Source: Deltaproteobacteria bacterium
GTDB taxonomy: Bacteria; UBA10199; JADFYH01
Assembly: GCA_015233135.1 (NCBI GenBank)
Contig: JADFYH010000026.1
Span: forward strand, 1,092-42,421
Direction: 5' to 3'
DNA: 41,330 bases
Shown piece after piece: positions 8,970-36,322 of this stretch (position 1 is its first letter; each line of letters opens with the position of its first letter). A model generated the notes under the pieces. The model was given only the letters and a program-made list of their open reading frames with translations. It did not search any database and was not told the origin of the DNA. Position numbers and translations under genes: made by a program.

Positions 8970-9006
8970 TCCCCTCTCCACTTGGGGGAGAGGGTAGGGT
9001 GAGGGG
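8970..9006. repeat. REP-like palindrome upstream of the lipoprotein gene
   Basis: CCCCTCTCCACTTGGGGGAGAGGG followed by AGGGTGAGGGG, about 20 bp upstream of the lipoprotein start codon. It does not supply the ribosome-binding site, which lies closer to the gene. Confidence 0.75.
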
Positions 9007-9140: not shown

Positions 9141-9178
9141 CCCCTCACCCTGGCCCTCTCCCCCAAGGGGAGAGGGGA
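9141..9178. repeat. REP-like palindrome in the intergenic region
   Basis: CCCCTCACCCTGGCCCTCTC followed by CCCCAAGGGGAGAGGGG. It is the second of several palindromes in the 300-bp gene-free gap at 8951-9250. Apart from palindromes I see nothing coding in this gap. Confidence 0.75.
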
Positions 9179-17411: not shown

Positions 17412-20400
17412 GAAGAGAGATGCCCGGCCACAAAACTAGCGGCCTCGGAGACCGAAGAAGCGAGGTAAGTGGCAAGTCCAACGGTGAGTGGAAGCATTAT
17501 CCCCCCCACTGTACGAAGAAACCCCGTGCGCACGATGCGTGCAGGAGCAGCTGGGCCAGCGCCGGGAGGAGTAGATCCAGGGCTTGTTGGGTCGACAATA
17601 TTGAACTTAAGCGGTCTGCCATTCACAGTAAGTACAAAAGAATCACCTAATTCAAAACTATGTTCCCCGTGTTGATGATGGAAAAGAGGGATCGCTCTGT
17701 CCTCTTCACCACCTTTCAAAAAGACTCCTTCTCTTACCGCCCAAGGATTAACCGCCCTCAATTTGTAGACCACCGCACTGTCTTGCATTACAGCAAGCAA
17801 CTCAAAGTTTTGGAGTGTTTCTCTCTCTGAATGATCTTCTTCCACAAATTCGCTTAAGCGTTTGGTTTCCCCTGTGGGAACCACACAATCAATCCCCTTA
17901 GAGCATTTTACGGCTTGAGGGGTATAGAGATCATAGAAAACACCTGCCACCGACAGTTTTAAGATATCCCCATCCGAAAATGAAACTGGGGATTGCTTTA
18001 ACTCTTCTAAGCTTACCCTTCTGTTTTTTCCATTTGGAGATTGTATACAGACAAAAAGATGATCTTCTATATTTTTTATAAAGGGGTATGGATGTGGAGC
18101 CAGGCTTAATTGGTAAGTCTTGCCAGTGCGTTTAAGGCTGACCCGTCCCTCAAGAGTAGAGGCCATCCCATCAATTACTCCTACGCCTCTTAAGCCCCCA
18201 TCTCCCCACTCTTCCCCTCTCAACTTATCAAGACCGACTTCTCCATTCTCTTCTAACTTAAGATCTACTCGAGTATGGCCAGGGAAAATGCTTTCAATCA
18301 TTCGCCCCTCTACCAATATATAAACCTTGCTTACTTCTCCTGTAAACTCTTCCCCCGCAACACCCAACCCACCCATATCTTTTATACCCGCTCCCTTTTC
18401 ATTTAAGAGATGAACCTCAACTCTTCCATCCATATATTTTAAAATGATGGGGATATCTGTTCTTACCCCACCTTCACGCTGAATATAATAATGCACAGCA
18501 TATGGATTAGCAGTCTGATAAAATGATGATATTCGTGAAATAGAAAATTCATTGCCTTCAGGGAAATCACCTCCTCTACCGAGAGAACACGCTTGATTTA
18601 ATGGAACCTGAACTCTATGATGTCGATCCCCATAATCCACAACGCCTGAATCCACCACAGCCAGGAGATCCCTTGCCAGAGCCACATCAAAGACGCCAGT
18701 CTTTCCTACTTGGCCGATGACCCGAGCAAAAACATCCGTCCCTGCTTCGATGAGTCGGCTTAATTGGGTACTGACAGCAGCAACAGTAGCTACTGAATCG
18801 CCCTCTGCAGCACCACCCCCCTTCGGCCCACTGTTTTCTTCTACCAGCCCCCCCAGACAAATTCTCACTCGCTCACCTCGAATCACCAGATCGAATTTGT
18901 TTCCTTCCAGCAGCTGGACAATTCGGGGTTTTAAGGGATAGACCAATTCTTGATCATCAATGCGACAAATCACTTGAGGCCTTTCCCCTGCAAATTGAGG
19001 ATCAAAGCCCTCTCTAAAGCGCAAGGCGCAAGCCTTTCCATTTTCTGTTGTAGAAATTTCCAATTGTTTCAAAATAGCCTCATGCCTGTGCCCAGGAATC
19101 ACCTGATCCAAAGTCACACGGGCACCAGGCAACAGCGTAAAATTGTAAACGGGAATATCTTCTGAGGCTGCCGGTACTAGATGCTCGGCAGCCGCGGAAA
19201 GTCTCGCCGACAGTTCCTCTAAGCCTCTTCGCAAAGCAGCTGCGATATCAACACCTTTATTCCACAATTGCCTTACCCCTGCAGCCATTACATCTCTAGG
19301 CAACTGATTCGCGCGCGCTATCACTTCCTGCAAGGCTTCCAATCTTCGCTCGGGCACACGCCTTTTATAGGCGGCCTTGGCGCTTCTTATTTCCTCAATC
19401 AACTTCGCTCGTAACTCAGAGGGCTGGATCACCTGGTTTACAGAAGCCACCGCAAGGGCACGCTCCATTCCATTGGCGGCATTGTAAATGGCGGCCTCTT
19501 TGTTGACGTACTCTTCAAGAATGGGTTGCAACACAAGCCCTCGCTGCACGTCTTCCAGCTTGGCCTCTCCTTTTTTCACACGCTCATCTGCCTCTGCCTG
19601 GGCACGAATGGCATCGGTCACCAAACCCTGCCAATTTTTCATACGTGCATCCCGTTCGGCAGCCTTGAGTATTTCTCTTCCGTAAACCACCAGGGCAACT
19701 CCACGCCCATCCAGCACTTGTTCTCTGGCTCCTTCCAAAGCCAACACACGGAAGGCCTCCTGATCTTCAGGAGCAGCCAGTTGCCGATCGACCACCACTT
19801 TTCCACCGCCGGTACAGGCCCCAAGATTCACCATGACTTGAGGCCCCTCAAACAAGACATTGGCCGTTCCGTATTTGCCGCCGTTGGTCAATTGACGTTC
19901 CTGCATCGCAAGACCAATGGCCATAAAAACCAGATTGTCATAAAGATGAACCAAAGGAAGTCGCCCATCGGCCTTGCCAATGGCCCTCATAATTTTTGCA
20001 GAATCACTCGGCGCAAGCACCCCAGGTTGAAACACCAACATCACCGGCTGCCCGCCAATTTGAGCAATAGCCGCTACTGTTTTTGTAGCCATGGGTTCTT
20101 TGTTTTTAATTTTCAAGGCATCATTTTGAAGATGAAATTCTCCCTTGTAATCTTTCCATAAAAAGAGAGGGGGCGGGGCATCCTGATCGATTAAGGCTCG
20201 AAGGAAAGGAAGAAAATCTTCCTGGGGCATTGGAGCACCTAATTTTTTCATCAGGTCGCCAATGTTTCCCTGTTCAACACCATTCACCATCCACGGAGTT
20301 TGGGTCACATCGCGATCTACCGGATCTTTGCTGCGTCGTCTGCTCACAATCTGACCATTGCGTTCCACTGCCGTATAATAATGCAGCAGCAGTAATTGTT

Positions 20401-23400
20401 TGTGAGCCTCCAGTCGATTGGGTGCAAAAAGTTGCGCTTCACCATTAGGACCATGCACCCCGTTGTATCCGGCCATATCTTGAATGCCGCCCGGAAAGGT
20501 TCTTTTGACGATGCCAGGCAGTTGGGTCACCGAGGCAGTTGGATTTGCTGCGGCTGCAAAGGCTTGGGGGCCAGTGAGGGCCAGACTTCCACGAGGAGTC
20601 ATGATCACCACCCCACCGGTAGCCTCCGCGATGGCAGCAATCGAAATATCATAAGACATGATACCGATACTGAAATCATCCACCACAAAATTCATGCGTA
20701 CTCGGTGTTTACCAAGCTCTGCATTTTGCTTAATGCAATTTAAAACAATTTCTCTAAAGGTGGCACTCACCGCATCCAGCACCTCTACCCCGGAATCCCT
20801 GTCAATAAAGGCCCCGGCGGAGGCCACATGCCAATCGATATCCAAACCATTTTCTGCCGCATAGTGAATGGCCGCAATAATGCGCGCCGTTTCTTCATGG
20901 CCAATAGAGCCTTTGGAGGGGTCATGCGAGAGATCGCCAAGGATACTCAAACGGCGAACGGGAAAGCCCAGGCCCATGTCGTTTTCCATCAAACCTATCA
21001 CCACCCCCGCCTTGTTTCGTCCTATTTCTCTGGCTTGACCGTCGGCATTCACCGCAGGAACAAGTTGCCCCGGATGATTGTAATCAATTTTTCCTGTGGA
21101 TGGATTGATCGGTGTCGCACTGCCCTTCACCACATGTTCTAGATCCAGTTCCACGAAGCGGGTGTTCCCCTTAAATGCTCTAGGATGTTCTCTAGCCAAT
21201 GCACTGATGGCGGCATCCATGTGCATAGGCACATGATAGGCAAAGACACCCCCAGTCGCCTGAACTTTTCTAGCTCTCAATTCCACGGGTGTCGCCGTAC
21301 TCACCTTAGATTCGTCCAAAAACTTATAGGCAATCTCCCCGAGGGGCCTATTTGTTTTTGTCAGCGATGCAACTGTACTGGCATCACTCCAATTCACCAT
21401 GACTCTTTTCGACTGAAGCTCAGCCCCTGCTGCATTGGCAAACAAGGCCTCTTCAAGCGCTTTCACCTTCACTTCAAAACGATAGCGCGTAGGGTTGGTA
21501 ATCGTAATTAAAACCTCGCGATATTTATTGGAAGTTTCAGAAACCCTAATACGACCACGCACCACCACTTTTTCAAGATGAAGTTTTCTCAACAACTCCC
21601 AGTGCTGGGTGGCCAAGTTTTCAACATAAGCGACAGTCTCGTCATGAGTCATGTCCAATTCGGGAAGTATATTCATAAACAAGCGATTCCACTTCGCCGA
21701 TTCTTTCGCATTATCCGTCAACGATTGTTCCATCGCCCGAATACTTTTAACAAACAACTCCTCCAATTTTGGAATACCCACTACACCCTGTTCATTACGC
21801 AACACCTGGGCACGCCTCACCACCAAGTTTCCAAAAAGACGCACATCTCCCTTCACCTCTTTTTCTTTTCCCGAACCATAATACAAATGCACATCACGGT
21901 CTGAATTGACCTGATCACGTCTTAAATCAAAAAGAGAAAGGCGTTCAATTTCAATTAAACGATTGGCCGTGAAAGGCTGAAGAGATCTGAGATTAGTGGC
22001 TTCTACAAATTTTTGGGATAGGCCTTGGCCATTGGGTTCTCGAACGAAGGTATAATAAACAGGGTAAGCATTCCCCTCCGTAAAGGCAACCGTCACTCGG
22101 CGAAGATTGGACTCACTGACCCAGCTGGAATCGCTGTTCAAACTTTCGGCAAAGCTTTGCAGCCATTTTGCCTCCTCAAAGCCGGCAGGCTTCGCCATCA
22201 TCAATTCCACCACATTGCTGCCGCAATTTTTACAATCCGAGTTTCTCAGCTTCAAGGTGTGCCCAATATCATGCAAATCTTGGATAGCTTTTTCGGGGCT
22301 TGTTTTGACACGGGCAAAAGAACGTTGAATTCGTCTGGCATCCCCATTCCTGCCCTCCACTTTATAAAAGTTCACCACCAGGGCATCTGCATCCAGATGT
22401 TTTATGCTCTCCAGATGATGCCCACGAAATTCGCGCCGGGTTTGAATGTTTTCAGCCAGCTGTCGAGCTTTGGGACTCAAAGCCTTGTTATTATAAAGTG
22501 CGGTCAAAGGCGTGGTGAGTGATTCTGCAAGAGTTACAATCTGTTTTACAAACTGCCTTTTTTGCTCCATATCAAAACCCTTGGCAATCAACTCAAAAAG
22601 ATGACCCAAATTTTTGAGAGATTGGGTTCTGTCTTTTTCATCCAGGCCTCTGCTAAAATTCTCAAACAGTTGTACAGCCAGATTTGCATTATTTTCTGCG
22701 GATTCCCCGGCAAACAACCTCACACGCGAGGCATTTTCAAAACCCCAGGTGGCGACGCCTTCCGGAGAAAGGCTGATATCCACTTTTAATCGTGCAGGGC
22801 TTCCACCCTTCGCTGCCCCAGCAACTTCATATTCCCAGTTATAAAGCCCCTGACGAGCCGCAAGCAAAGGCACGGCTTCCGATTGAAAATAATCACTATT
22901 AAATCCTCCCGAAAAATATTCGATGGAAGGGGGCTGAAACAACTCGGAATGTCTGTTATAATGAACGCAGTAAACCATCTCCCCGGCAGGCAAACCCGGA
23001 ACAGGATCAGAGGCCACATAAACTGTTTTATGCCCCGAGGCCTGACGAATACGAATATTTTTTAGATCACCGATACTGTTGAGCTGGAAAGTAATTTCAT
23101 TCTTTGGATCTCGCTGAAGCCTTGCCAACTCTTCTCTGAATGCCCTGTTTTGCTGAAAAAATTTGGCCAGGGTTCCTAGTAAAGGATCCGAAGTTCTGAG
23201 GGGATCGGAAATAAAAGCTTCGAGGCGTTGTTGCAGCAGATCAATATTTTTGGCAGTGGGAAGTCTAATATTCGCCACACATTCCAGGTGTAAGCTGACC
23301 GCTGATCTTAATTTCAAGGCTCTTTTTTCTTTGTAACGATAACTGCTGCGATCTTCAAATTCTTCACGGGGAATTGGGCGCCCTCTGCTTTGCAAGGCCG

Positions 23401-26400
23401 CTTTTCCCAAGGCTTTCTCGAGGCCATTGCTTGCGTAATGATTATCGTATTCTCCGGTTCGCACCGCTTCGCGCGCCAGAAATCTCAGTTGGCCCAAAAT
23501 ATCCGCCTTGGCTTTTTCAGACTCAAAGACGGTTTTGGATAAGGCCTGAGAGGCTCTTTGAAGCACCTGCAATCTTTTTCCGGGATGATAAACCACAAGC
23601 TTGGCAAACATGGCGTCGAAGAAACCGAAAATTCTATCGCCACTCGCGATAGAGGTCTCCACATGAATTCCTTCGCTCTCAGGAAATTCCAAGCGATTCA
23701 CTGTTCCGGGGGAAGGGGCATTTCTACCGCGATAAAGACTGTTGGGATCTGCTGCTTTCAAACGAACTTCCACCGCTGACCCATGATTTTCAATACTCTC
23801 CTGAAGGTAAGAAAGGGGAAGACCTCGACCAATGTCGATAGCATCTGAAATAAGATCGGCCGTTTCGTCCTCTCGTCCGAGAATTCGGGTCACGAGTTCC
23901 GTCACGCGATGTTCCACCTGAATTCGCGCGTTCACCTCCATGGCAAAAAAATCACCGGTATCGGGATCCACCATGAATTCTACCGTTCCATGTCCGGTAT
24001 AATTCACGGCCTGCGCGGCCTTGCGCACCGCTTCATACATCTTTTCTCTTAAACCAGGGAAACGAGCAAAAATTTCAGCCGGATAAATTTCAATGAGTTT
24101 TTGATCCCCTTCCTGAAGCGTACATTCTCTTTCACTGAGTATTCCTGTGTTTCCAAAACGGTCGCGAATAATTTGAAATTCCACATGCTGAAAACGGGGA
24201 ATAAACCGTTCTGCCAAAATTCTTTTGCTTTTACCTTCTTCCTGACAGGTTCCAAATTCATTCACTAATTCTTTTAGAGTATAGACCGTCTGCTGACCTT
24301 TTCCACCACCGCCTCCGACAGCTTTGAGGCGAGCCCCAAAGGCCAAGGCAATCTCTTCGAAACTTTCATTTCTCTCAATGTTTGAGAGCACCGCCAAAAC
24401 CCTTTGCCTATCTTCAGATTTAAAAAATCCAATCTCCAAAAGTTCTCTCGCTAGCGACAAGGCATTCTCGTGTCCCACCTGAGTCCCTTGCACAACGGGA
24501 ATCCCCGCTTCGATAAAGGCCTGCTTGGCTACATCTTTATCGCCCGCACGAAGCATACTTTTCACAGAAGGGCCAAATAAAATCAACCCCTCCCCATTTA
24601 ATGCCGTCACCAGCTCATGGGCTTCCGATTTGTAACCGTAGCCTGGATGCACCGCCTGACAATTGGAACGCCTGGCTTCCAGGGCGATATGATTTACATC
24701 TTGATACAAATTATTGATCAAATTCTCATCCGTAACGACAGGGTCACCACTACTGATCAAATGTTCCACCTGCCCTGCAGCATCCATTTCTTGCCTCAAG
24801 GCCTCGGATAACTTCGCAGGTGCTTCTGCCACCACCACAGGAACAAAGCCCTGGTGTTGACGAATCGCACGAACAGCATCGGCCGTTCCAAAGCTGGTAT
24901 CAATGGGGGTAGTGGAAGTGTATTTAAAATCTTTTGCTCTTTTTTTGCTGTCGGACTCCGGAGCACGCAGACGCACAAACACCCTGGCCTCGGCGCCAAA
25001 CTCCTCAACGGCCTTTCTCACCCAGGCATGATTCGCCTCGGCTTCATGCACCATGATCACCGGAGTCATTCCCTGCTTATGTACACTGCGCGCAATACGC
25101 ACGGCAATTTCACCGCGATGGGGGATAAACACGCGTTCAACATTAGGATTGGTTTGGATATTTAAACCTGGATTTAAGATCGCCTGAAGATCATCCAGGC
25201 GTTGAAACAGAACCTTTCTTTGTTTGGCGTCCAGACCTTTATCTGTAATACCGGCCAGGGCACGGCGGGCATTATCGTTTGCCGCCTTGGTTTTAAAATT
25301 TTGTTTTTTAAACCTTTCCCAAGCAGTGGAGGCACTCTGGCTTGTATCGGTGAGTCGCGTATAAATCTTTCTCTTGAGGGCTAGGGCTTCCCCTCTGACA
25401 GCTGAGGCAGAGGATCCCCTACGCCCCGCAGCCTGCAGCCCTTCCACGCCTTCCCCTTCCACTCGAGACGCCGCGTCCACTCCGGAAATTTCCAAACCCA
25501 GTTGCGCCGCTGCACCTTCTGGAGAATTTAATTTTGTTGCTGTCAGGAGTTCTGCAGGCACTGCAGGATTTTCCAAACCCAGAGGATTTTTTGGATCGGA
25601 TTTTCCATCCGAGAAAAAGCCTTGGGAAGTTCCTTCATCTCTACCTGAACCTGAACCCGCCGCATCTTTTGCAGTCACCCGCGCACGCGCTGCAGACGCC
25701 AATCTCTCGGGCTCTGCTTGGGCATGGCGATTCAGCGATTCTTGATCTCGAACTCTCACTTGGGCCGCTAAGGCTTGTTGGATGGCCAAGCCCTCTCTCC
25801 CTTGAGGGGAGAGAGTTGGAGAGAGGGCGACCGCGGGTGCACTCGGGGTCACCCTCTCCCTGCCCTCTCCCGTCGAGGGAGAGGGGAAAACTAAATTAGA
25901 ATGTATAGAAAAAGTTTCTGCAGAGGGATAAGAAGCTCGACCCTCTCTCCCTTGAGGGGAGAGAGTTGGAGAGAGGGGGGTCGCAGGTGCACTCGAGATC
26001 CCCCTCTCCCTGTCCTCTCCCGTCGAGGGAGAGGGGAAAACTAAATTAGAATGTATAGAAAAAGTTTCTGCGGAGGGATAAGAAGCTCGACCCTCTCTCC
26101 CTTGAGGGGAGAGAGTTGGAGAGAGGGGGGTCGCGGGTGCACTCGAGATCCCCCTCTCCCTGTCCTCTCCCATCGTAGAATTATCAATTGCATCCACTGG
26201 CTCTCTCTCTCCTCCCTGCCGCCCCTGAAAATCCCTCACCTCTCCCAAAACGCCTTGCACTGCCTCTAAATCCCGATCCAAGAAAGGTCTCAAATAAAAA
26301 GCCAGCTGCTCCGGATTTCCCTCCGACAAGGCTCGAATCCCTGCCAGGGTATGTGCCTCAACGCCCAGTTCCAAGGCATTCTGCAGCAGGCGCAAGCGCT

Positions 26401-28837
26401 CTGAACTGGAGAGGCCTAAATCCGCAATCGATCTTATCAAGCCCTGGGCATTCAAATTTCGTGTCGCTTCATAAGTAAACGCCTCCATTTGCAGATCGCG
26501 CAGATCAAAGCCCGCAGGCCTTTGTTCGCCTGAACTCCGATAAGCTGGGTGCTCTGTTTCAGAACCATGAAGATGAAAAAGTTCTCTCAGGTCCACTTCG
26601 TGCCCATTCATTCGTTCGCGCACTTCGGCCAATAGTTCTTCGTGGCTGCAACGTCGCGAAAGATCGATTTCACCCGTCAAATAATGCCATAAACCTTCAT
26701 GCGAAGAAGCCTGTGCAGCAGGCACTGGGCGCCGCTCCAAAGCCAGCAGCAATTCCGTCATCCTCAAACCTCTTTCGCCAAAAGGAGGAATAGCAAGCTC
26801 ACGCAGAAAAGGCTGAAAACGTCGAGCCTCTGATAATAGATGATGCCGCCCTTCCACCCCATGCATCCAGTGCCCCGCTCCTGGAACCCCTTCAATCAAG
26901 CCTCCGCCGGCCTTCATCTTGAGATCTTCAATCACATTCCCCAAAAACCCTAAACTCCAGGAAGGTTTCCTCGCTTCTTCTTCCAATCCTAAAAATTGAT
27001 TCACCGTCCCCGAGGCATAAAAACTCCCAGGACCTGTCAGCAAATAATCAAGCACCCATAAAGAACGATTGCTCAACGCCCTCATCGCAGAAGACGAGAC
27101 ATTCTCAAACAAAAGCGTACGCAGCGGACGAGCTAAGGCCTTGAACGCTGCCCCCCAGCCATGACAGGTGGCAAAGGTAATCATCATGCTGGCAAAACCT
27201 TTTGCCCCTGCATAAGGCGTCACTTCATGGCTTAAAAAATTTCTATAGGCATCTTGATGCAGAGGGTTCTGGCTGTCCGCATACGCAAAGGCCCCGCCTA
27301 CTCCCATTCCCGCCACCGTAAAACCCGCGGCCTCTGCCGCACAGGGAAGTAAAAATCCAAGGGCCGCCCCCAAACGGGCAATGCCCATGGCCTTGGTGGC
27401 CACCGACAGGCCGCGACCCATCGCAAAGGGAATCAGAAAATGGCTGTAGGTCTGTAAGACATTGTGCCCCAGGCCGGGAATGAAGTTTTGCAACTCCCCA
27501 AGCACGGTATTGGCTTGGGCCTTGAGTTCCAGAGTGGCTCGTAAGCCCGCAGGCAAGCTCCCCAGGCTGTGGCGTTGTTCCAAAAGTCCGGCCAGCTGGA
27601 TGCCGCTCTGTGTATAGCCCCGGTCTTGAGTTCCCAGGCGCAAGGCCAAATCGTAAATCTGCGCATCCACTTCGCCTTCCCCCACCCTCAGCGTCTCTTC
27701 ATTGGCGGCCACAAAATCGATGAGGAGTTGAGCCACGGTACGCGTATCCGAGCTGTCGTGAAAGAAGTGAGCCCGCATCCAATTTTCTAGGGCAAAAGAT
27801 TCCGGAGCCGTGTGAGATAAAAAATCCTGAACCTGCACAAAACCTAGAGCCGCCCGAGTATCCGTCAAAACAGAAGCTAGGGCCTCGCTGAGCGTGGCAT
27901 GTTCGTGATGTTCCAAATATTGCGATACGGCTTGAAGATATGCCTGAATTTCGTGATCAAGCCCTTCTTGCGAAGCATGATGTTCTTGAACTTGTTTCTG
28001 CGCCCATTCGGAGAGTACGGTCTGCAGCACTCCTACCAAAAGCCCGCGCCGAGAGAGTTGCAGGGATCCTTCGAGTTGATCTCTCAGTTCGGTGGCCAAC
28101 ACGTTCTCGGGATGGGCCTGTACCTTGGCTCGCAGGCGACTTAGGGCCGCTTCAATGTGTTGGGGTGTTTGCTCGGAGGCGTAAAGGCCTCTCAAGATAG
28201 GCAGAATGGACGCCAGTTGCGCCAGTCGAGTCTGATCTTCGGCACTACAAAAGCGGGCCCCTCGGCCCCGATGGGCTAAAGGGTTTTCTGAAACATAGCC
28301 TGCCACTCGATCCAGATGCTGCAAGGCCTTCTCATGATCCCCGGCCTGGGCCCAAACACCCGCCATGGCCCGTTCTGCCGAGGCCAAGGCCCAGGGGCTG
28401 GTCCAGCTTTGAGTCTCGCGTTCAAATCGAGCCAAAAGTTCTGTCACCCGAGCCGTTCGCCCCACAGCGGCCAAACGCGTAGCGGCTTCTATCAGGGCAT
28501 TCAGCTGGGTTTGGTTGAGACGAGATCTGCCTTGCAGATTAATCCCCGAAAGCGATTGATCTACCGCGACTTCTACTCCATGAATTTGCTCCGCGCTGGG
28601 ACCTTCGTGTTCTGTCTGGGCAGGGGTTTCAGAGGCTAATAGCCGCTGGCCATTCAAACGCCTCCATAAATTTTGAGTATTGTGTTGGAGTGCCATCCCC
28701 ACTTCACGAGCCAAATTGGGCGCTGGAGTAGGATTTGCGGTATCAGTGCCTGAATGAGCATGAGGTACTGTAACTGGCCCCACCGTTGGAATATGAGGAA
28801 TGGCGTTTTCAGACGAAGGAATACGTGCTGAGGTCAT
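17387..28837 (-). CDS. Giant protein with eukaryotic-type acetyl-CoA-carboxylase core (BC, central and carboxyltransferase domains)
   Basis: 3816 residues; ATG at 28837 behind AAGGGAG. Residues ~1-460 are alpha-helical, TPR-like. Residues ~465-560 are hydrophobic (ARLGAALGFLLPCAAEAAGF) and probably membrane-associated. At ~890-1015 there are 150-bp REP-derived tandem repeats. Residues ~1230-1760 are a biotin carboxylase: HRGEIAVRIARSV, HPGYGYKSE, LKAVGGGGGKGQ, QKLIE, AMEVNARIQVEH, PSPGTV. Residues ~2000-2520 resemble the ACC central domain (IEIERLSLFDL, DVHLYYG, NRLFMNILPELDM). Residues ~2520-3155 are an ACC-like carboxyltransferase (GVVIGLMENDMG, LALTGPQAF, GACTGGGKVVVD). Residues ~3160-3780 are beta-rich with GDxFxLxVxG units, then a hydrophobic end. 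No MKM biotin-attachment motif is visible. The typical eukaryotic ACC is ~2200-2350 residues; the core here is ~1925. Enzyme activity is unproven. Confidence 0.8.
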   Translation of the reverse strand: MTSARIPSSENAIPHIPTVGPVTVPHAHSGTDTANPTPAPNLAREVGMALQHNTQNLWRRLNGQRLLASETPAQTEHEGPSAEQIHGVEVAVDQSLSGINLQGRSRLNQTQLNALIEAATRLAAVGRTARVTELLARFERETQSWTSPWALASAERAMAGVWAQAGDHEKALQHLDRVAGYVSENPLAHRGRGARFCSAEDQTRLAQLASILPILRGLYASEQTPQHIEAALSRLRAKVQAHPENVLATELRDQLEGSLQLSRRGLLVGVLQTVLSEWAQKQVQEHHASQEGLDHEIQAYLQAVSQYLEHHEHATLSEALASVLTDTRAALGFVQVQDFLSHTAPESFALENWMRAHFFHDSSDTRTVAQLLIDFVAANEETLRVGEGEVDAQIYDLALRLGTQDRGYTQSGIQLAGLLEQRHSLGSLPAGLRATLELKAQANTVLGELQNFIPGLGHNVLQTYSHFLIPFAMGRGLSVATKAMGIARLGAALGFLLPCAAEAAGFTVAGMGVGGAFAYADSQNPLHQDAYRNFLSHEVTPYAGAKGFASMMITFATCHGWGAAFKALARPLRTLLFENVSSSAMRALSNRSLWVLDYLLTGPGSFYASGTVNQFLGLEEEARKPSWSLGFLGNVIEDLKMKAGGGLIEGVPGAGHWMHGVEGRHHLLSEARRFQPFLRELAIPPFGERGLRMTELLLALERRPVPAAQASSHEGLWHYLTGEIDLSRRCSHEELLAEVRERMNGHEVDLRELFHLHGSETEHPAYRSSGEQRPAGFDLRDLQMEAFTYEATRNLNAQGLIRSIADLGLSSSERLRLLQNALELGVEAHTLAGIRALSEGNPEQLAFYLRPFLDRDLEAVQGVLGEVRDFQGRQGGEREPVDAIDNSTMGEDRERGISSAPATPLSPTLSPQGREGRASYPSAETFSIHSNLVFPSPSTGEDRERGISSAPATPLSPTLSPQGREGRASYPSAETFSIHSNLVFPSPSTGEGRERVTPSAPAVALSPTLSPQGREGLAIQQALAAQVRVRDQESLNRHAQAEPERLASAARARVTAKDAAGSGSGRDEGTSQGFFSDGKSDPKNPLGLENPAVPAELLTATKLNSPEGAAAQLGLEISGVDAASRVEGEGVEGLQAAGRRGSSASAVRGEALALKRKIYTRLTDTSQSASTAWERFKKQNFKTKAANDNARRALAGITDKGLDAKQRKVLFQRLDDLQAILNPGLNIQTNPNVERVFIPHRGEIAVRIARSVHKQGMTPVIMVHEAEANHAWVRKAVEEFGAEARVFVRLRAPESDSKKRAKDFKYTSTTPIDTSFGTADAVRAIRQHQGFVPVVVAEAPAKLSEALRQEMDAAGQVEHLISSGDPVVTDENLINNLYQDVNHIALEARRSNCQAVHPGYGYKSEAHELVTALNGEGLILFGPSVKSMLRAGDKDVAKQAFIEAGIPVVQGTQVGHENALSLARELLEIGFFKSEDRQRVLAVLSNIERNESFEEIALAFGARLKAVGGGGGKGQQTVYTLKELVNEFGTCQEEGKSKRILAERFIPRFQHVEFQIIRDRFGNTGILSERECTLQEGDQKLIEIYPAEIFARFPGLREKMYEAVRKAAQAVNYTGHGTVEFMVDPDTGDFFAMEVNARIQVEHRVTELVTRILGREDETADLISDAIDIGRGLPLSYLQESIENHGSAVEVRLKAADPNSLYRGRNAPSPGTVNRLEFPESEGIHVETSIASGDRIFGFFDAMFAKLVVYHPGKRLQVLQRASQALSKTVFESEKAKADILGQLRFLAREAVRTGEYDNHYASNGLEKALGKAALQSRGRPIPREEFEDRSSYRYKEKRALKLRSAVSLHLECVANIRLPTAKNIDLLQQRLEAFISDPLRTSDPLLGTLAKFFQQNRAFREELARLQRDPKNEITFQLNSIGDLKNIRIRQASGHKTVYVASDPVPGLPAGEMVYCVHYNRHSELFQPPSIEYFSGGFNSDYFQSEAVPLLAARQGLYNWEYEVAGAAKGGSPARLKVDISLSPEGVATWGFENASRVRLFAGESAENNANLAVQLFENFSRGLDEKDRTQSLKNLGHLFELIAKGFDMEQKRQFVKQIVTLAESLTTPLTALYNNKALSPKARQLAENIQTRREFRGHHLESIKHLDADALVVNFYKVEGRNGDARRIQRSFARVKTSPEKAIQDLHDIGHTLKLRNSDCKNCGSNVVELMMAKPAGFEEAKWLQSFAESLNSDSSWVSESNLRRVTVAFTEGNAYPVYYTFVREPNGQGLSQKFVEATNLRSLQPFTANRLIEIERLSLFDLRRDQVNSDRDVHLYYGSGKEKEVKGDVRLFGNLVVRRAQVLRNEQGVVGIPKLEELFVKSIRAMEQSLTDNAKESAKWNRLFMNILPELDMTHDETVAYVENLATQHWELLRKLHLEKVVVRGRIRVSETSNKYREVLITITNPTRYRFEVKVKALEEALFANAAGAELQSKRVMVNWSDASTVASLTKTNRPLGEIAYKFLDESKVSTATPVELRARKVQATGGVFAYHVPMHMDAAISALAREHPRAFKGNTRFVELDLEHVVKGSATPINPSTGKIDYNHPGQLVPAVNADGQAREIGRNKAGVVIGLMENDMGLGFPVRRLSILGDLSHDPSKGSIGHEETARIIAAIHYAAENGLDIDWHVASAGAFIDRDSGVEVLDAVSATFREIVLNCIKQNAELGKHRVRMNFVVDDFSIGIMSYDISIAAIAEATGGVVIMTPRGSLALTGPQAFAAAANPTASVTQLPGIVKRTFPGGIQDMAGYNGVHGPNGEAQLFAPNRLEAHKQLLLLHYYTAVERNGQIVSRRRSKDPVDRDVTQTPWMVNGVEQGNIGDLMKKLGAPMPQEDFLPFLRALIDQDAPPPLFLWKDYKGEFHLQNDALKIKNKEPMATKTVAAIAQIGGQPVMLVFQPGVLAPSDSAKIMRAIGKADGRLPLVHLYDNLVFMAIGLAMQERQLTNGGKYGTANVLFEGPQVMVNLGACTGGGKVVVDRQLAAPEDQEAFRVLALEGAREQVLDGRGVALVVYGREILKAAERDARMKNWQGLVTDAIRAQAEADERVKKGEAKLEDVQRGLVLQPILEEYVNKEAAIYNAANGMERALAVASVNQVIQPSELRAKLIEEIRSAKAAYKRRVPERRLEALQEVIARANQLPRDVMAAGVRQLWNKGVDIAAALRRGLEELSARLSAAAEHLVPAASEDIPVYNFTLLPGARVTLDQVIPGHRHEAILKQLEISTTENGKACALRFREGFDPQFAGERPQVICRIDDQELVYPLKPRIVQLLEGNKFDLVIRGERVRICLGGLVEENSGPKGGGAAEGDSVATVAAVSTQLSRLIEAGTDVFARVIGQVGKTGVFDVALARDLLAVVDSGVVDYGDRHHRVQVPLNQACSLGRGGDFPEGNEFSISRISSFYQTANPYAVHYYIQREGGVRTDIPIILKYMDGRVEVHLLNEKGAGIKDMGGLGVAGEEFTGEVSKVYILVEGRMIESIFPGHTRVDLKLEENGEVGLDKLRGEEWGDGGLRGVGVIDGMASTLEGRVSLKRTGKTYQLSLAPHPYPFIKNIEDHLFVCIQSPNGKNRRVSLEELKQSPVSFSDGDILKLSVAGVFYDLYTPQAVKCSKGIDCVVPTGETKRLSEFVEEDHSERETLQNFELLAVMQDSAVVYKLRAVNPWAVREGVFLKGGEEDRAIPLFHHQHGEHSFELGDSFVLTVNGRPLKFNIVDPTSPGSTPPGAGPAAPARIVRTGFLRTVGGIMLPLTVGLATYLASSVSEAASFVAGHLSSCCSGVFF
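17389..17397 (-). promoter_or_regulatory. T9 homopolymer at the giant-gene stop: possible slippage site
   Basis: On the coding (minus) strand the giant frame reads GGT GTT TTT TTT TAG. The kinase-FGE frame is open through the same bases (TGT TTT TTT TTA GCC). One extra T (transcriptional slippage), or a -1 ribosomal shift, would join the frames into one ~4.7-thousand-residue protein. It may instead reflect a miscounted homopolymer in the assembly. Confidence 0.45.
25791..26172. repeat. Three near-identical 150-bp tandem units containing REP-like palindromes, inside the giant gene
   Basis: Units start at 25791, 25941 and 26091 (period exactly 150 bp = 50 codons); the third is partial. Each contains two palindromic blocks (CCCTCTCTCCCTTGAGGGGA... 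and CCCTCTCCCGTCGAGGGAGA...) and a shared AT-rich spacer. In the giant frame they encode a Ser/Pro/Arg-rich linker (LSPTLSPQGREG, VFPSPSTGE) between the helical N-terminal region and the carboxylase core. Copies differ at only a few positions, so the duplication is recent. Confidence 0.9.
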
Positions 28838-29018: not shown

Positions 29019-29564
29019 ATGCAAACCCTTCGAAAAAAAATCAGATTTACCTATACCGATTATCTGCAGATGCCTTCCGAAAGACGCTATGAACTCGTGG
29101 ATGGAGATTTTCATATGGTTGCTGCACCACTTACTTATCATCAAAAAGTTCTAAGAAAATTATATGAGCTACTTGCACCAACAGCTCGAAATAATGAAGG
29201 CGAACTGTTTTTTGCCCCGGTAGATGTCGTCTTTTCTGAAGAAGACGTCGTCCAACCTGACCTAATTTTTATTTCCAAGGCTCGCTTGGGAATTATTACT
29301 GAAAAAAATGTAAGTGGCGCCCCTGAATTGGTTGTAGAAATTCTGTCCCCCTCTACCCGGGATTGGGACCGAAGCATTAAAAAACGCTTGTACGAAAAAT
29401 TTGGGGTTCAGGAATACTGGATCGTCGATCCCGAAGGTCAAAGTTTGGAGATTCTCAGCTTAACCGAGGAAGGCTTTCAGACCTTCCGTTGTTTTCAAAA
29501 GAACGCAAGGGCCACTTCCCCCTATTTTAAAGAATTAAGTTTTTCAGTTGAGCAACTTTTCTGA
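29019..29564 (+). CDS. Uma2 family (DUF820) nuclease-fold protein
   Basis: 181 residues. It has the Uma2 pattern in order: FTYTDYLQMPSERRYELVDG at the N-terminus, VVQPDLIFIS, APELVVEILSPSTRDWD, then KKRLYEKFGVQEYWIVDPE. Acidic residues in D-x-x-F/E-x-L-SPST fit a PD-(D/E)XK-like restriction-endonuclease fold. Members are abundant in cyanobacteria and other phyla but their role is not settled. The ATG has GAGGAG 3 bases upstream. The 3' end overlaps the convergent rpoH 3' end by 21 bp. The 181-bp gap to the divergent giant gene shows the giant gene's ribosome-binding site but no convincing promoter. Confidence 0.87.
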   Translation: MQTLRKKIRFTYTDYLQMPSERRYELVDGDFHMVAAPLTYHQKVLRKLYELLAPTARNNEGELFFAPVDVVFSEEDVVQPDLIFISKARLGIITEKNVSGAPELVVEILSPSTRDWDRSIKKRLYEKFGVQEYWIVDPEGQSLEILSLTEEGFQTFRCFQKNARATSPYFKELSFSVEQLF

Positions 29565-30449
29565 TTCTTTGGGGGCATCCCCCTCAAAATACCCCTTCAG
29601 CTTCTCCTTGATACGCTCTTCCAACTGCCTCACCCGCTCACGGGTAATTCCATATTCATCCGCGATATCCTGCAAAGTTTTAGGCATATCCGCCACCAGG
29701 CGTTCCTGAAAGATCTTAAGCTCGCGAGTATTAAGTGTTTTTGAGAACTGACCTAGTTTTTCGAGGAGCGCATCTTTAACTTGATGCTCGGATAAGGTTT
29801 CGTCTACCGGTTTACTACTATCTTTCAGCAAATCGACATGCAAAGTTCCATTATTTTCCCCAACAGGCACATCAATGGAAAGCTCGGAATTGGCCAGACG
29901 CAGGCTCATGTCGTTGATGTCCTCTTCCGATACATCCAGGCGCTCTGCCAACACCTTAGAATCGGAAGCGAACCCTTTCTTTTCAAGATCTTCTTTTTCT
30001 TTCATCAAGTTAAAGAACAGCTTTCTCTGCACCTGGGTAGTACCAATTTTAATGAGGCGAAAATTATCCAAAATATATTTCAGGATGTAAGACCGTATCC
30101 ACCAAGAGGCATAATACGCCACTCGCGCACCTTTCTCGGGGTCGTAATTCTTGACCGCCTTGAGCAAACCCACATTGCCTTCCTGAATGAGATCCAAGAC
30201 ATTTTGATAGGCAGAACGGTATTCCATGGCAATTTTCACCACCAAGCGCAAATGCGAGGTCACCAGTTTTTTCGCTGCCTCCACGTCCTTAAACTGATGC
30301 ATCTTTTCGACCAGTTCTTTTTCTTCTTCTTCAGAAAGCAAAGGATAACGTGAAACCTTTTGAAGGTACTGTTGCAGGGGATCTGAAGGAACCAAGGTCT
30401 GATTCTTCTGCAGACCCAAGGTTCTTTTTTTATTTTTAATTTCAGTCAT
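29544..30449 (-). CDS. rpoH: RNA polymerase sigma factor RpoH (sigma-32 type)
   Basis: 301 residues from the ATG at 30449 (MTEIKNKKRTLG); an in-frame upstream extension is encoded by the palindrome at 30461-30594 and is unlikely to be native. Region 1.2 is DPLQQYLQKVSRYPLLSEEE, region 2 contains HLRLVVKIAMEYR, DLIQEGNVGLLKAV and YASWWIRSYI, and the RpoH box is QRKLFFNL. Region 4.2 helix-turn-helix: TLQDIADEYGITRERVRQLE. The RpoH box separates it from housekeeping sigma-70. Expected role: heat-shock or stress promoter recognition by RNA polymerase. It is the last gene of the minus-strand run, 146 bp after tsaE, and may have its own promoter in or near the palindrome. Confidence 0.93.
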   Translation of the reverse strand: MTEIKNKKRTLGLQKNQTLVPSDPLQQYLQKVSRYPLLSEEEEKELVEKMHQFKDVEAAKKLVTSHLRLVVKIAMEYRSAYQNVLDLIQEGNVGLLKAVKNYDPEKGARVAYYASWWIRSYILKYILDNFRLIKIGTTQVQRKLFFNLMKEKEDLEKKGFASDSKVLAERLDVSEEDINDMSLRLANSELSIDVPVGENNGTLHVDLLKDSSKPVDETLSEHQVKDALLEKLGQFSKTLNTRELKIFQERLVADMPKTLQDIADEYGITRERVRQLEERIKEKLKGYFEGDAPKESEKLLN

Positions 30450-30460
30450 AAATAATAGTT

Positions 30461-30594
30461 CTCTTTCATAAATCAGCGAACGGTCCAAGTGCAAGGCGCG
30501 GAGGGTCCAAAATACCGGAGTTTGCTACTGCAAATGAGGATTTTTTGGATACCGCAACGCCGCAATTGGATCGTGCAGCGATTTATGAAAGAGA
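30461..30594. repeat. 134-bp symmetric palindrome between tsaE and rpoH
   Basis: The outer 14 bp (CTCTTTCATAAATC / GATTTATGAAAGAG) are perfectly complementary. The arms continue with mismatches (CGGTCCAAGTGC versus CGATCCAATTGC, GGGTCCAAAAT versus GTATCCAAAAA). The apex TTTGC-TACT-GCAAA sits exactly at the centre of the element. Both arms, read outward, encode the same LDRxxIYERxL peptide, which creates misleading short reading frames. It looks like a non-autonomous palindromic repeat element or a structured RNA leader of rpoH. Confidence 0.8.
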
Positions 30595-30595
30595 T

Positions 30596-31003
30596 CTAAT
30601 GAATTTCTATTTCTCTGGTAGTTGTATCCACTTTCCTAATCTCCACCCTAAAATCAAAACTCAAGTCTTGTATAAATTTATCGGCCCACTCAACGACCAC
30701 GATGTTTTCCGTTTGAAGATAGTCCTCAAAACCCAGTTCCTGCAGCTGAGCCAAATTCTCTAAACGATATAAATCCAAATGAACAAGCGTTTTTGCGCCG
30801 GCGTAAATTTGCATCAAGCTAAAGGTAGGAGAAGTCACTTCTTCTTCATTTATCCCCAAGGCCTGGGCCATTCCTTTCACAAAATGGGTTTTTCCTGCAC
30901 CCAAATCGCCGATCAAGGCAATCACTTCGCCGCCTTTTAATTGTTTGGTAAAAGTAGAGGCGATCTCAAAAGTTTTTTGGAGGGAGTGGGAGAGAAATTT
31001 CAT
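30596..31003 (-). CDS. tsaE: tRNA threonylcarbamoyladenosine biosynthesis ATPase TsaE
   Basis: 135 residues, close to the usual ~150. Walker A is GDLGAGKTHFVKG at residues ~32-44, followed by TSPTFSLMQIY, HLDLYRLE (Walker B region) and VVVEWADKF. This order is diagnostic for TsaE (YjeE). It works with TsaB and TsaD in the cytoplasm to make the t6A modification at tRNA position 37. It begins 5 bp after the PIN toxin gene, so it is probably co-transcribed with the toxin-antitoxin pair. Its stop is 2 bp from the 134-bp palindrome. Confidence 0.95.
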   Translation of the reverse strand: MKFLSHSLQKTFEIASTFTKQLKGGEVIALIGDLGAGKTHFVKGMAQALGINEEEVTSPTFSLMQIYAGAKTLVHLDLYRLENLAQLQELGFEDYLQTENIVVVEWADKFIQDLSFDFRVEIRKVDTTTREIEIH

Positions 31004-31008
31004 GCGAA

Positions 31009-31425
31009 CTAAACCCCAATCACTTCAAAGCCCTGAGCCTGGGCAGCAAGAGCTAATTCTTGATCGTGGGTTGCAAACAGAAAATCAGCTTTAACCCGTT
31101 CTCTCCAAAATAGGGCTGTCGATAAATGGATACTGTCCAGAGAGGCAAGAGCTGTTGGAAGAGAAGCCTCAGAAAAAGTTAAGATTGCTTCATTAATTGG
31201 AATTAAAGTAATAGGAAATAAAATTTTATGAAGGCCCAAATGATAAGCAGAGATATTCTCGCTCTTAATTTTATGTTGGAACTTTATTCGATCAAGGGTT
31301 CGATAGCACTCCACACGGAGCAAACGGCTAGACAAAGCTCGTTCAATTTTTCCCCATTCTTTTAATAAATAAGGCTCCCCAAATAAAACCCGCAATACAA
31401 CTGAACTATCTACATAACAGATCAT
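31009..31425 (-). CDS. PIN-domain toxin, VapC type
   Basis: 138 residues with the PIN acidic residues in the expected order: Asp in ICYVDSSVVLR (~6), Glu in LRVECYRTLDR (~41), Asp in LASLDSIHLSTAL (~95) and Asp in FATHDQELALAA (~119). PIN toxins are Mg-dependent ribonucleases, in many VapC cases cutting tRNA or rRNA; the target here is unknown. The ATG overlaps the antitoxin stop (ATGA), the usual translational coupling. Followed after 5 bp by tsaE. Confidence 0.9.
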   Translation of the reverse strand: MICYVDSSVVLRVLFGEPYLLKEWGKIERALSSRLLRVECYRTLDRIKFQHKIKSENISAYHLGLHKILFPITLIPINEAILTFSEASLPTALASLDSIHLSTALFWRERVKADFLFATHDQELALAAQAQGFEVIGV

Positions 31426-31679
31426 CTTCGTCTTCTCTCTTTAATCAATTCTGCCACAATATCAATTTCGGGATTTAATCGGGGAAATTTCATCTTTGCA
31501 ACTTTAGCAAAAGATTTGAGTTTTGGAAGGGCTTCTACGTTTTCTTTCTTATTCTCAAATGAAACAAGCCTCCCAATGGGATGATCACGGTCTAAAATAA
31601 TAATCTCTTCTCCTAGTCTAATTTTCTTGAGATATTCGCTCAGGTGACTTCTGAATTCGGCTATTTTGACGTTGATCAT
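31422..31679 (-). CDS. Phd/YefM-type antitoxin
   Basis: 85 residues from the ATG at 31679 (MINVKIAEFRSHLSEYLKKI). It has the Phd/YefM N-terminal fold pattern (V-x-E-F-R-x-x-L-x-x-Y-L), then GEEIIILDRDHPIGRLV and a basic C-terminal tail that would bind the toxin. An in-frame ATG 15 bases upstream lies inside the palindromic operator, and no clear ribosome-binding site precedes either start; a leaderless transcript beginning at 31679 fits the promoter spacing. Expected to bind its own promoter with the toxin and repress it. Confidence 0.85.
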   Translation of the reverse strand: MINVKIAEFRSHLSEYLKKIRLGEEIIILDRDHPIGRLVSFENKKENVEALPKLKSFAKVAKMKFPRLNPEIDIVAELIKERRRR

Positions 31680-31685
31680 TTTTTT

Positions 31686-31713
31686 GTTGTACATGAATGT
31701 ACACCAAAGTCAA
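31686..31713 (-). promoter_or_regulatory. Promoter and palindromic operator of the toxin-antitoxin pair
   Basis: On the minus strand, TTGACT (31708-31713) and TACAAC (31686-31691) are separated by 16 bases and fit a sigma-70 promoter. The perfect 16-bp palindrome TGTACATTCATGTACA (31688-31703) fills the spacer and touches the -10 box, the expected place for antitoxin autorepression. Confidence 0.6.
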
Positions 31714-35431: not shown

Positions 35432-36322
35432 CTACCCCCTCTCCCTACCCTCTCCCTCAAAGGGAGAGGGAGAAGATAAAAAATCATTTACTAAAGTACA
35501 AGTACGCCTCGCTGCCGCGACATTGTGCACACGTAGAAACTGGATTCCCTGGTTCAGGCACAAGGCATGGGCCACTTCGCTTAAAGTGGATCGATCACGA
35601 GGAACATGATCTTCTTCAAAATATTTTTTCAAAAAAGACTTTCGAGAAAGCCCTATCATTAAAGGTCGCCTGAATTTCTGCAATTGTTTTAAGTAGGCCA
35701 GCAACTGAACATTTTGGCTCCCTGTTTTGGCAAAACCAACACCAGGATCCAAAATAATCTTTCGCAGATCCACTTTTTTTTTATCGAGGGCTTCCAATTT
35801 TTCTTCAAAAAAACGACAGAGCTCTTCCATAATATTTGGATATCGATTCAAGCTCGACATCGTCTGTGGGTTTCCCCGCGAATGCATCAAGACTGCAGGC
35901 AGGTGATGCTGGGCCAAAAAAGGAATCATCTCTTTATCAAATTCAAAAGCGCTCACGTCATTGATGAGATCAACACCGTAAGAAAGAAGTTTCTCGGCAA
36001 CTTTCACCTTTCGCGTATCGAGTGAAACAGGCAAATTTATTTGATCTCTCAACACATCCAAAACAGGAAGAAGACGATCCAATTCTTTCTGCACCGTAAT
36101 TGCTGTAGCTCCGGGACGAGTCGACTCGGCACCAATTTCAATCAGATCGGCCCCTTGAGCTTGCAAGTCTAAGGCATGTTTCAGAGCCTGCTTGGGATTG
36201 TGATACAAATCTCCATCCGAGAAAGAATCGGGGGTCACATTTAAAATACCAATCAAAAAAGGAAAGGGCCCAAAAGAAAAATTTGTGGGACCGAGTTGGA
36301 GTGGAGAAAGATCCTGTAACAT
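35432..36322 (-). CDS. folP: Dihydropteroate synthase
   Basis: 296 residues, slightly longer than usual. Motifs: FLIGILNVTPDSFSDGD (pterin and phosphate loop), IEIGAESTRPGA, PVSLDTRKVKVAE, INDVSAFEFD, VLMHSRGNPQTM, IILDPGVGFAKTG, MIGLSRKSFL, LRVHNVAAAR. It joins p-aminobenzoate to dihydropterin pyrophosphate in folate synthesis. The natural end is near VNDFLSS; the last ~12 residues (PSPFEGEGRERG) and the stop come from the REP-like palindrome at 35433-35475. It starts 9 bp after ftsH and its stop is 1 bp before the glmM GTG. Confidence 0.96.
   Translation of the reverse strand: MLQDLSPLQLGPTNFSFGPFPFLIGILNVTPDSFSDGDLYHNPKQALKHALDLQAQGADLIEIGAESTRPGATAITVQKELDRLLPVLDVLRDQINLPVSLDTRKVKVAEKLLSYGVDLINDVSAFEFDKEMIPFLAQHHLPAVLMHSRGNPQTMSSLNRYPNIMEELCRFFEEKLEALDKKKVDLRKIILDPGVGFAKTGSQNVQLLAYLKQLQKFRRPLMIGLSRKSFLKKYFEEDHVPRDRSTLSEVAHALCLNQGIQFLRVHNVAAARRTCTLVNDFLSSPSPFEGEGRERG
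35433..35475. repeat. REP-like palindrome at the folP/glmM junction
   Basis: On the minus strand it reads CTCCCTTTGAGGGAGAGGGT... and ends in GAGGGGGTAG. It provides the folP C-terminal codons and stop as well as the glmM ribosome-binding site. Confidence 0.8.

Follow-up and report, generated by a model that had tools for sequence, protein, structure and literature searches.

A long palindrome directly upstream of an rpoH-like sigma-32 gene raises the question of whether it takes part in the control of that gene or is a mobile sequence that came to lie there. Thermosensors of rpoH exist in other bacteria, and the first-pass annotation of this deltaproteobacterial DNA (41,330 nucleotides, hereafter the window) proposed either a MITE-like element or an RNA structure in the rpoH leader.

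A 141-bp hairpin element separates tsaE and rpoH

The symmetry of the palindrome, its centre at 30527/30528, its apex stem TTTGC/GCAAA and its location between tsaE and rpoH were all as first described. The perfect outer arm measures 15 bp (30460-30474 with 30580-30594) rather than 14 bp, and the palindrome, originally sized at 134 bp, belongs to an element of 141 bp (30457-30597). A repeat search returned one inverted repeat, 30456-30492 with 30562-30598, at 81% complementarity. The predicted fold is strong on both strands, with -60.5 kcal/mol (z -8.1) on the minus strand and -71.0 kcal/mol (z -9.0) on the plus strand, neither of which was equalled by any of 200 shuffles. A known Rfam family was rejected, as the Rfam search of the palindrome gave three matches at E <= 5, each far under its gathering score. 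The features of the locus are as follows.

29544-30449, minus strand: rpoH-like sigma-32 gene (ATG at 30447-30449), by NF005143 above cut-off and Pfam sigma-70 regions
30454-30456: target duplication AAT on the rpoH side, by equal flanks
30457-30597, plus strand: mobile hairpin element of 141 bp, by ends, flanks and copies; the family model is oriented along the plus strand (AAGGCG left, CAACGCCGC right)
30457-30474, plus strand: left terminal arm AGTTCTCTTTCATAAATC, with 1 mismatch against the other end (AGATCTC)
30461-30467, minus strand: SD-like GAAAGAG for rpoH, from the element end, within the basal stem and 11 nt before the ATG
30493-30498, plus strand: core motif AAGGCG, its AA an unpaired bulge with an invariant second A, by letter counts and folds
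30517-30519, plus strand: internal loop GGA, left of the apex stem
30520-30535, plus strand: apex stem-loop GTTTGC-TACT-GCAAAT, with apex stem halves TTTGC (30521-30525) and GCAAA (30530-30534)
30536-30537, plus strand: internal loop GA, right of the apex stem
30555-30561, plus strand: core motif CAACGCC, its CAA an unpaired bulge, by letter counts and folds
30580-30597, plus strand: right terminal arm GATTTATGAAAGAGATCT
30598-30600: target duplication AAT on the tsaE side, contributing the T to the current stop codon of tsaE (minus strand)
30596-31003, minus strand: tsaE, by TIGR00150 and PF02367

The rpoH-like product scored 280 bits against TIGR02392, below the cut-off of 323. Directly upstream of tsaE lies a toxin-antitoxin module made up of a PIN-domain and Phd-YefM-type antitoxin pair (31009-31425 and 31422-31694, minus strand), and a gene for a Uma2-type putative endonuclease (PF05685; 29019-29564, plus strand) converges with rpoH, overlapping the end of the latter by 21 nt. 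An ORF of 3816 aa (17387-28837, minus strand) shows carboxylase-like stretches by eye.

The window also contains a second palindromic repeat, CTCTCCCNNNNNGGGAGAGG-like, at 25791-26240, 35450-35469, 9155-9175, 8974-8993 and 1282-1919, with 37 matches (up to 3 mismatches, both strands, corresponding to about half as many places) where 1.1 were expected. It occurs as three 150-nt tandem copies inside the 3816-aa ORF (94% and 60% to the first), and another copy coincides with the beginning of an ORF resembling phosphoglucosamine mutase by eye; the true start of this ORF may lie downstream of the one listed.

The element is one of many copies with inverted ends and target duplications

A DNA search of the element's own genome (2.61 Mb, 64 contigs) found it at 12 places at E < 1e-17, 7 of them near full length with 84-100% identity; 5 further rows were the same places on the other strand. 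With R1, a covariance model built from ten sequences of the element's own class, 20 matches were obtained at E <= 1, representing 18 distinct places (E <= 4e-4), one reverse reading and one weak fragment, with 150 of 1630 candidates scored. The family thus occupies at least 18 places in its own genome. The window element itself matches R1 over 30468-30589 with 131.4 bits and a later model, R2, with 111.3 bits. Some other copies (L009, L011, L092) lie near apparent tRNA genes, as judged by eye from flanking sequence.

The termini of the window element read AGTTCTC and AGATCTC, the third base of the left end being mismatched against the right end. Equal 3-bp flanks border 11 of the 15 copies that end in AGAYYTC; in the own genome this holds for 9 of 10, with flanks of the form ANT. 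The ANT duplication fits an ISL2-like end of the IS5 family, ANT duplications being a mark of the ISL2 subgroup of that family. One and the same core is found with differing ends, including AGAYYTCTTKC with ANT, GAGCCTATCCT with TNA, and CAGGCTGTTGA and GGAACCTCTNA forms (by eye). The TNA flanks are equal in L080, L081 and L101 and unequal in L083. End types of the family include AGAYYTC, GAGCCTATCC and CAGGCTGTTGA, and further types occur by eye in the own genome (L008, L009, L011, L072, L074).

We searched for a parent insertion sequence (IS) in several ways. The end pattern gave 63 and 65 matches in the own genome (up to 2 mismatches) against 65 and 66 for a backward control, i.e. no excess. 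A PF01609 search of the own genome returned no IS with the element's ends, its one DDE_Tnp_1 match (G000) falling below cut-off, and a PF13359 search of the own genome and 10 relatives likewise gave no parent IS, the sole DDE_Tnp_4 match (L152, in G018) having other ends. Nor was an autonomous IS with the element's ends seen among the lone ends inspected.

These observations bear out the MITE-like reading of the first-pass annotation: the copies are many, the ends inverted and the target duplicated, and the empty site that can be reconstructed makes sense (see below). That the element is a MITE is near certain. A transposase of the DDE type, in all probability from the IS5 family, would act in trans on its ends. 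MITEs of that family with ISL2- or IS1031-like ends share with the element their inverted ends and 3-bp ANT or TNA duplications; they differ in that the element was found without a parent IS and has a conserved structured core as its interior.

Other multicopy palindromes offer looser likenesses. QMITE2 of Coxiella burnetii is by description also a palindromic MITE. As described in PMC5896051, it is 150-190 bp long and lies mainly in 3' untranslated regions, and its alphaproteobacterial relatives have a conserved stem and a divergent tip; it differs from the element in its 7-11 nt duplications and GTAG REP, according to the same text. The multicopy sequences of Geobacter resemble the element by description, being multicopy, intergenic and in some cases palindromic, and some are also placed inside genes (PMC2700814, PMC2996986). 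The palindromic, multicopy character of the element, with GTAG in some right arms (GCAGTAGG), is shared with REPs or REPINs of the RAYT kind (single-strand Y1 transposase). The GTAG/CGTC REPs are given as 20-40 bp in PMC3733652. The window copy reads GCAGCG at the GTAG position, and we rejected the REP kind on the 141-bp size, terminal inverted repeats and 3-bp duplication of the element, which leave this reading a very slim chance.

Insertion probably occurred where tsaE and rpoH formerly overlapped

Removal of the element and one AAT reconstructs an empty site in which the tsaE TGA overlaps the rpoH ATG as ATGA. The TsaE protein encoded by this empty site ends in EIHYL, with two extra sense codons before the TGA. 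The insertion therefore truncates tsaE by two codons, the new TAG stop consisting of the duplication T and the element's AG, and the present rpoH start lies 146 nt beyond this new stop.

Comparison with relatives points in the same direction. A protein search with RpoH gave 37 relatives at E <= 1e-40, of which 29 loci were examined. In 6 of these tsaE is upstream of rpoH within the examined stretch, and in the other 23 the stretch has no tsaE. The two genes overlap by 4-29 nt in 5 of the 6, taking the likeliest start codon, and are 808 nt apart in the sixth; all five overlapping cases come from one family (f10) of the class. The element was absent from all 29 loci, so that among 30 loci only the window's own matched. 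A scan of genome contigs for RpoH confirmed none of 43 stretches. Most likely, then, tsaE and rpoH overlapped before the insertion, and the empty site, the overlap in relatives and the lack of the element from the 29 relatives' loci point to what is in all likelihood a derived event specific to this lineage. We infer that the element would have entered the ATGA overlap, supplying tsaE with a TAG stop two codons early, and that this was presumably tolerated because just two tsaE codons were lost and rpoH remained whole.

The element appears mobile, with no support for a role as an rpoH regulator

The element ends 7 nt from the rpoH ATG, and its end, which would now cover the rpoH ribosome site, takes in the SD-like GAAAGAG. 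This arrangement, together with the known thermosensors of other bacteria, favours a temperature-sensitive or other regulatory RNA structure in the rpoH leader, selected for heat-shock control. In the predicted ensemble the unpaired probability of GAAAGAG is 0.000 at 20 C and just 0.034 at 75 C, so folding at different temperatures, which the first-pass annotation had suggested as a check, did not free the site, and in silico there is no melting sensor between 20 and 75 C. With the element also missing from 29 of 29 examined rpoH loci of relatives and the family carried at 17 other places in the genome, the leader reading found no support as an adaptive role, and we consider it highly improbable. 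A simple scan limited to short stems and sigma-70 hexamers detected no promoter-like or terminator-like site in the element. The element would be contained in any mRNA reading through from tsaE to rpoH, by which route an incidental effect on rpoH may be possible. We read the element as mobile and not as an rpoH regulator.

A conserved core with compensatory pairing and fixed loop letters

To describe the interior of the hairpin we used a structure-free MAFFT alignment of ten sequences and two larger alignments, A5 and A6. Loci L034 and L038 were excluded from alignments A1-A3, and L032 and L037 also from A1. A5 holds 47 of 60 matches, a cut at E 2e-7 having dropped 5 reverse-strand readings of elements already present and 8 weaker forward matches; A6 holds 61 R2 matches, of which 5 are elements also in A5 and 3 are ERIC copies. 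Because A5 and A6 were both obtained by fitting to the model, they are biased in its favour, and E-values are rough.

In the structure-free alignment 24 of 44 pairs show two-sided change, as compared to 12.7 in shuffled and 11 in the best slid control, and 93.6% of cells pair against 82.1% when shuffled. The corresponding figures for A5 are 90.9% of cells pairing and two-sided change in 38 of 44 pairs, with covariation of 0.652 (0.182 shuffled, 0.142 best slid), and for A6 90.1% and 40 of 44, with covariation of 0.751 (0.181 shuffled, 0.142 best slid). While the stems vary by compensatory pairs, the internal-loop letters A and CAA are fixed, and GGA/GA less strictly so. The second bulge A of AAGGCG is present in 47/47 sequences of A5 and 61/61 of A6, the three CAA bulge letters in 46, 47 and 47 of 47 and in 59, 60 and 60 of 61 (97-100%), and the A of the GA loop in 46/47 and 58/61. 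GGA/GA is less strict: of the 61 sequences in A6, the three GGA letters occur in 51, 47 and 47 and the two GA letters in 49 and 58. The fixed letters are therefore short, with AGGCG on the left, CAACG on the right and, less strictly, GGA/GA around a 6-bp apex stem, for which a G-T closing pair is the commonest in both A5 and A6. The outermost loop, CGTCACGA/GCAGTA, is common to some branches only. The window element has this core hairpin, with AAGGCG, GGA-stem-GA and CAACG at set places, which is how we define the ERIC-like superfamily here.

The simplest reading of the conserved loop letters may be that something recognises the hairpin as a folded single strand of RNA or DNA. Whether this strand would be RNA or DNA was addressed by counting G-T against A-C pairs. 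In the model-fitted alignments G-T pairs are in excess in both A5 (74:28) and A6 (125:37), whereas the counts obtained without the model, with the central part trimmed, are 132:65 in A6, 75:90 in A5 and 9:23 in A3. Given this mixed outcome we make no claim of RNA over DNA.

The core of the hairpin seems to share a family with ERIC

ERIC sequences have been used for PCR typing for decades. ERIC, also called IRU or RU-1, of enterobacteria and Vibrio resembles the element in length class and in forming a single long imperfect hairpin. We scored six ERIC copies with R2, filters off, none of which had been used in building the model; five had been chosen for variety among the matches listed (40 of 346 records), and the other was the first E. 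coli match. All six matched across the whole model, the matches stopping no more than a few bases from where ERIC itself ends, with 47.5, 41.4, 35.0, 32.2, 25.1 and 17.8 bits. Their E-values range from 2.4e-11 to 0.011, five being at E <= 8.3e-5 and the weakest copy (17.8 bits) at 0.011. On the opposite strand the E. coli copy scored 3.5 bits and the other five were absent at E <= 5 (about 9 bits). Letter for letter, all six copies have AAGGCG to the left of the apex, five have GGAGC or GGAAC ahead of the apex stem and two have CAACGC.

The rest of a 45-kb stretch of K-12 gave at most 13.4 bits with R2, except for one match of 33.0 bits between ycbX and rlmL. This match (L142 7696-7807; K-12 1007695-1007806) carries the apex motif ACCGGAGCGTAC..GTACGTGAGGAT in another E. 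coli repeat, which we take to be possibly boxC; its 32-nt apex-motif stretch occurs in E. coli genomes at a median of 4 places each.

In the strict sense the window element is no ERIC. It ends in AGAYYTC with a 3-bp ANT-type duplication, AAT, in place of the TATAC..GTATA ends of ERIC, whose termini carry TA (PMC2229807), and the two are likened by model match. The element folds like ERIC and has its core, yet the ends and duplication differ. The core and ERIC thus seem to be members of one family, a kinship that is well supported by five copies and weakly by the sixth. According to a 2007-8 review, no sequence motif had been found in ERIC besides its ends (PMC2229807). Within the open-licence literature we found no report connecting ERIC with repeats from other phyla, and priority is not certain.

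The family seems to reach several bacterial phyla

Within the element's own class, R1 matched 20 of 46 genomes (E <= 0.01), counting the element's own; one of them (G003) had 54 matches. Further loci were retrieved with a pattern built from the core's own letters, and their scores are therefore not independent of the core: 37.9-63.7 bits with R1 for named proteobacterial MAGs and 37.2 for one Planctomycetales MAG, with weaker loci at 27.4 (L032), 25.1 (L034) and 18.6 bits (L038). Twelve of the 22 pattern loci look real (L032-L034, L037-L039, L041-L043, L046, L052, L053). The other ten were set aside by eye as apparent chance matches in GC-rich DNA; R1 saw only L036 among them, at 18.5 bits (E 0.03), close to the weakest accepted locus, L038.

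R2 found matches in 9 of 9 genomes with pattern loci, with up to 64 at E <= 1 in one, these genomes having been chosen for having a match. A survey of the gammaproteobacterial class of G062 scored up to 9 candidates per genome. At E <= 1e-4 it gave matches in 166 of 369 genomes, 158 of which had a best E <= 1e-6, and scores reached 99.8 bits; 3 of the 369 (G062, G064, G065) were already known matches. In the planctomycete phylum of G063, 27 of 294 genomes matched, 22 of them at E <= 1e-6 (G063 included), and in the phylum of G057, 5 of 40 did, so that in both phyla the majority of genomes have no match.

How far a plain hairpin can imitate such matches was assessed with controls. Read on the opposite strand, the 61 hairpins of A6 gave no match at E <= 1e-6, a level that 158 genomes of the G062 class surpass. 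With R2, none of the other palindromic repeats of the window exceeded 16.0 bits; the element gave 18.6 bits backwards against 111.3 forwards, and a chance match in GC-rich DNA (L036) reached 20.9 bits. With R1, five A5 elements reached 32.5-35.8 bits in wrong-strand readings, and weak whole-genome matches may therefore be plain hairpins.

These data bear on whether the element is an ordinary MITE derived from IS5 and confined to this lineage, its likeness to ERIC and to sequences of other phyla being a convergence of long hairpins. Ends and duplications that resemble IS5 subgroups would fit such a view, as would wrong-strand hairpins of up to 35.8 bits with R1. We nevertheless judge it improbable, as unpaired letters (the bulge A, CAA and the A of GA) are fixed in both A5 and A6, scores reach 99.8 bits in the G062 class, and five ERIC copies score 25-47 bits against under about 9 on the opposite strand. 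The hairpin core family thus seems to reach several bacterial phyla.

Elements often lie close to gene 3' ends

The position of the elements relative to genes was examined for 97 copies with at least 500 nt of flank, using crude gene calls. Of these, 31 overlap a called ORF by more than 60 nt, and the remaining 66 sites are tandem (36), convergent (21), divergent (6) or open on one side (3). Among neighbouring genes, 48 of 79 3' ends but only 10 of 50 5' ends fall within 20 nt of an element. Such placement, with the scarcity of divergent sites, would suit a MITE kept as an mRNA 3'-end or processing signal, here for tsaE, a possibility compatible with the mobile-element reading and in line with an effect of ERIC on the stability of upstream mRNA reported for Yersinia (PMC2229807). 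On the other hand, purging of harmful insertions also yields placement at 3' ends, and tandem sites show no orientation preference (13 to 23, p 0.13). Retention as such a signal therefore seems to us unlikely, if still worth keeping in mind.

A proposed ERIC-like superfamily of mobile hairpins

Taken together, the element is very probably a non-autonomous mobile hairpin (MITE) belonging to a superfamily in which ERIC is the most familiar branch. This ERIC-like superfamily most likely combines a conserved structural core with ends that can be exchanged, the core presumably being inherited across elements with different ends. More tentatively, ERIC might be the enterobacterial branch of an ancient superfamily of mobile hairpins that crosses phyla, in which the loop letters of the core module are kept because a host or element factor recognises the folded single strand, and the outer ends are swapped among transposase systems of ANT, TNA and TA type. 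If this is true, a core common to other phyla would place ERIC in a wider family and provide motifs to mutate and a covariance model for genome annotation, and the shared core would bring the long-standing questions of how such hairpins function and how they are mobilised within reach of experiment.
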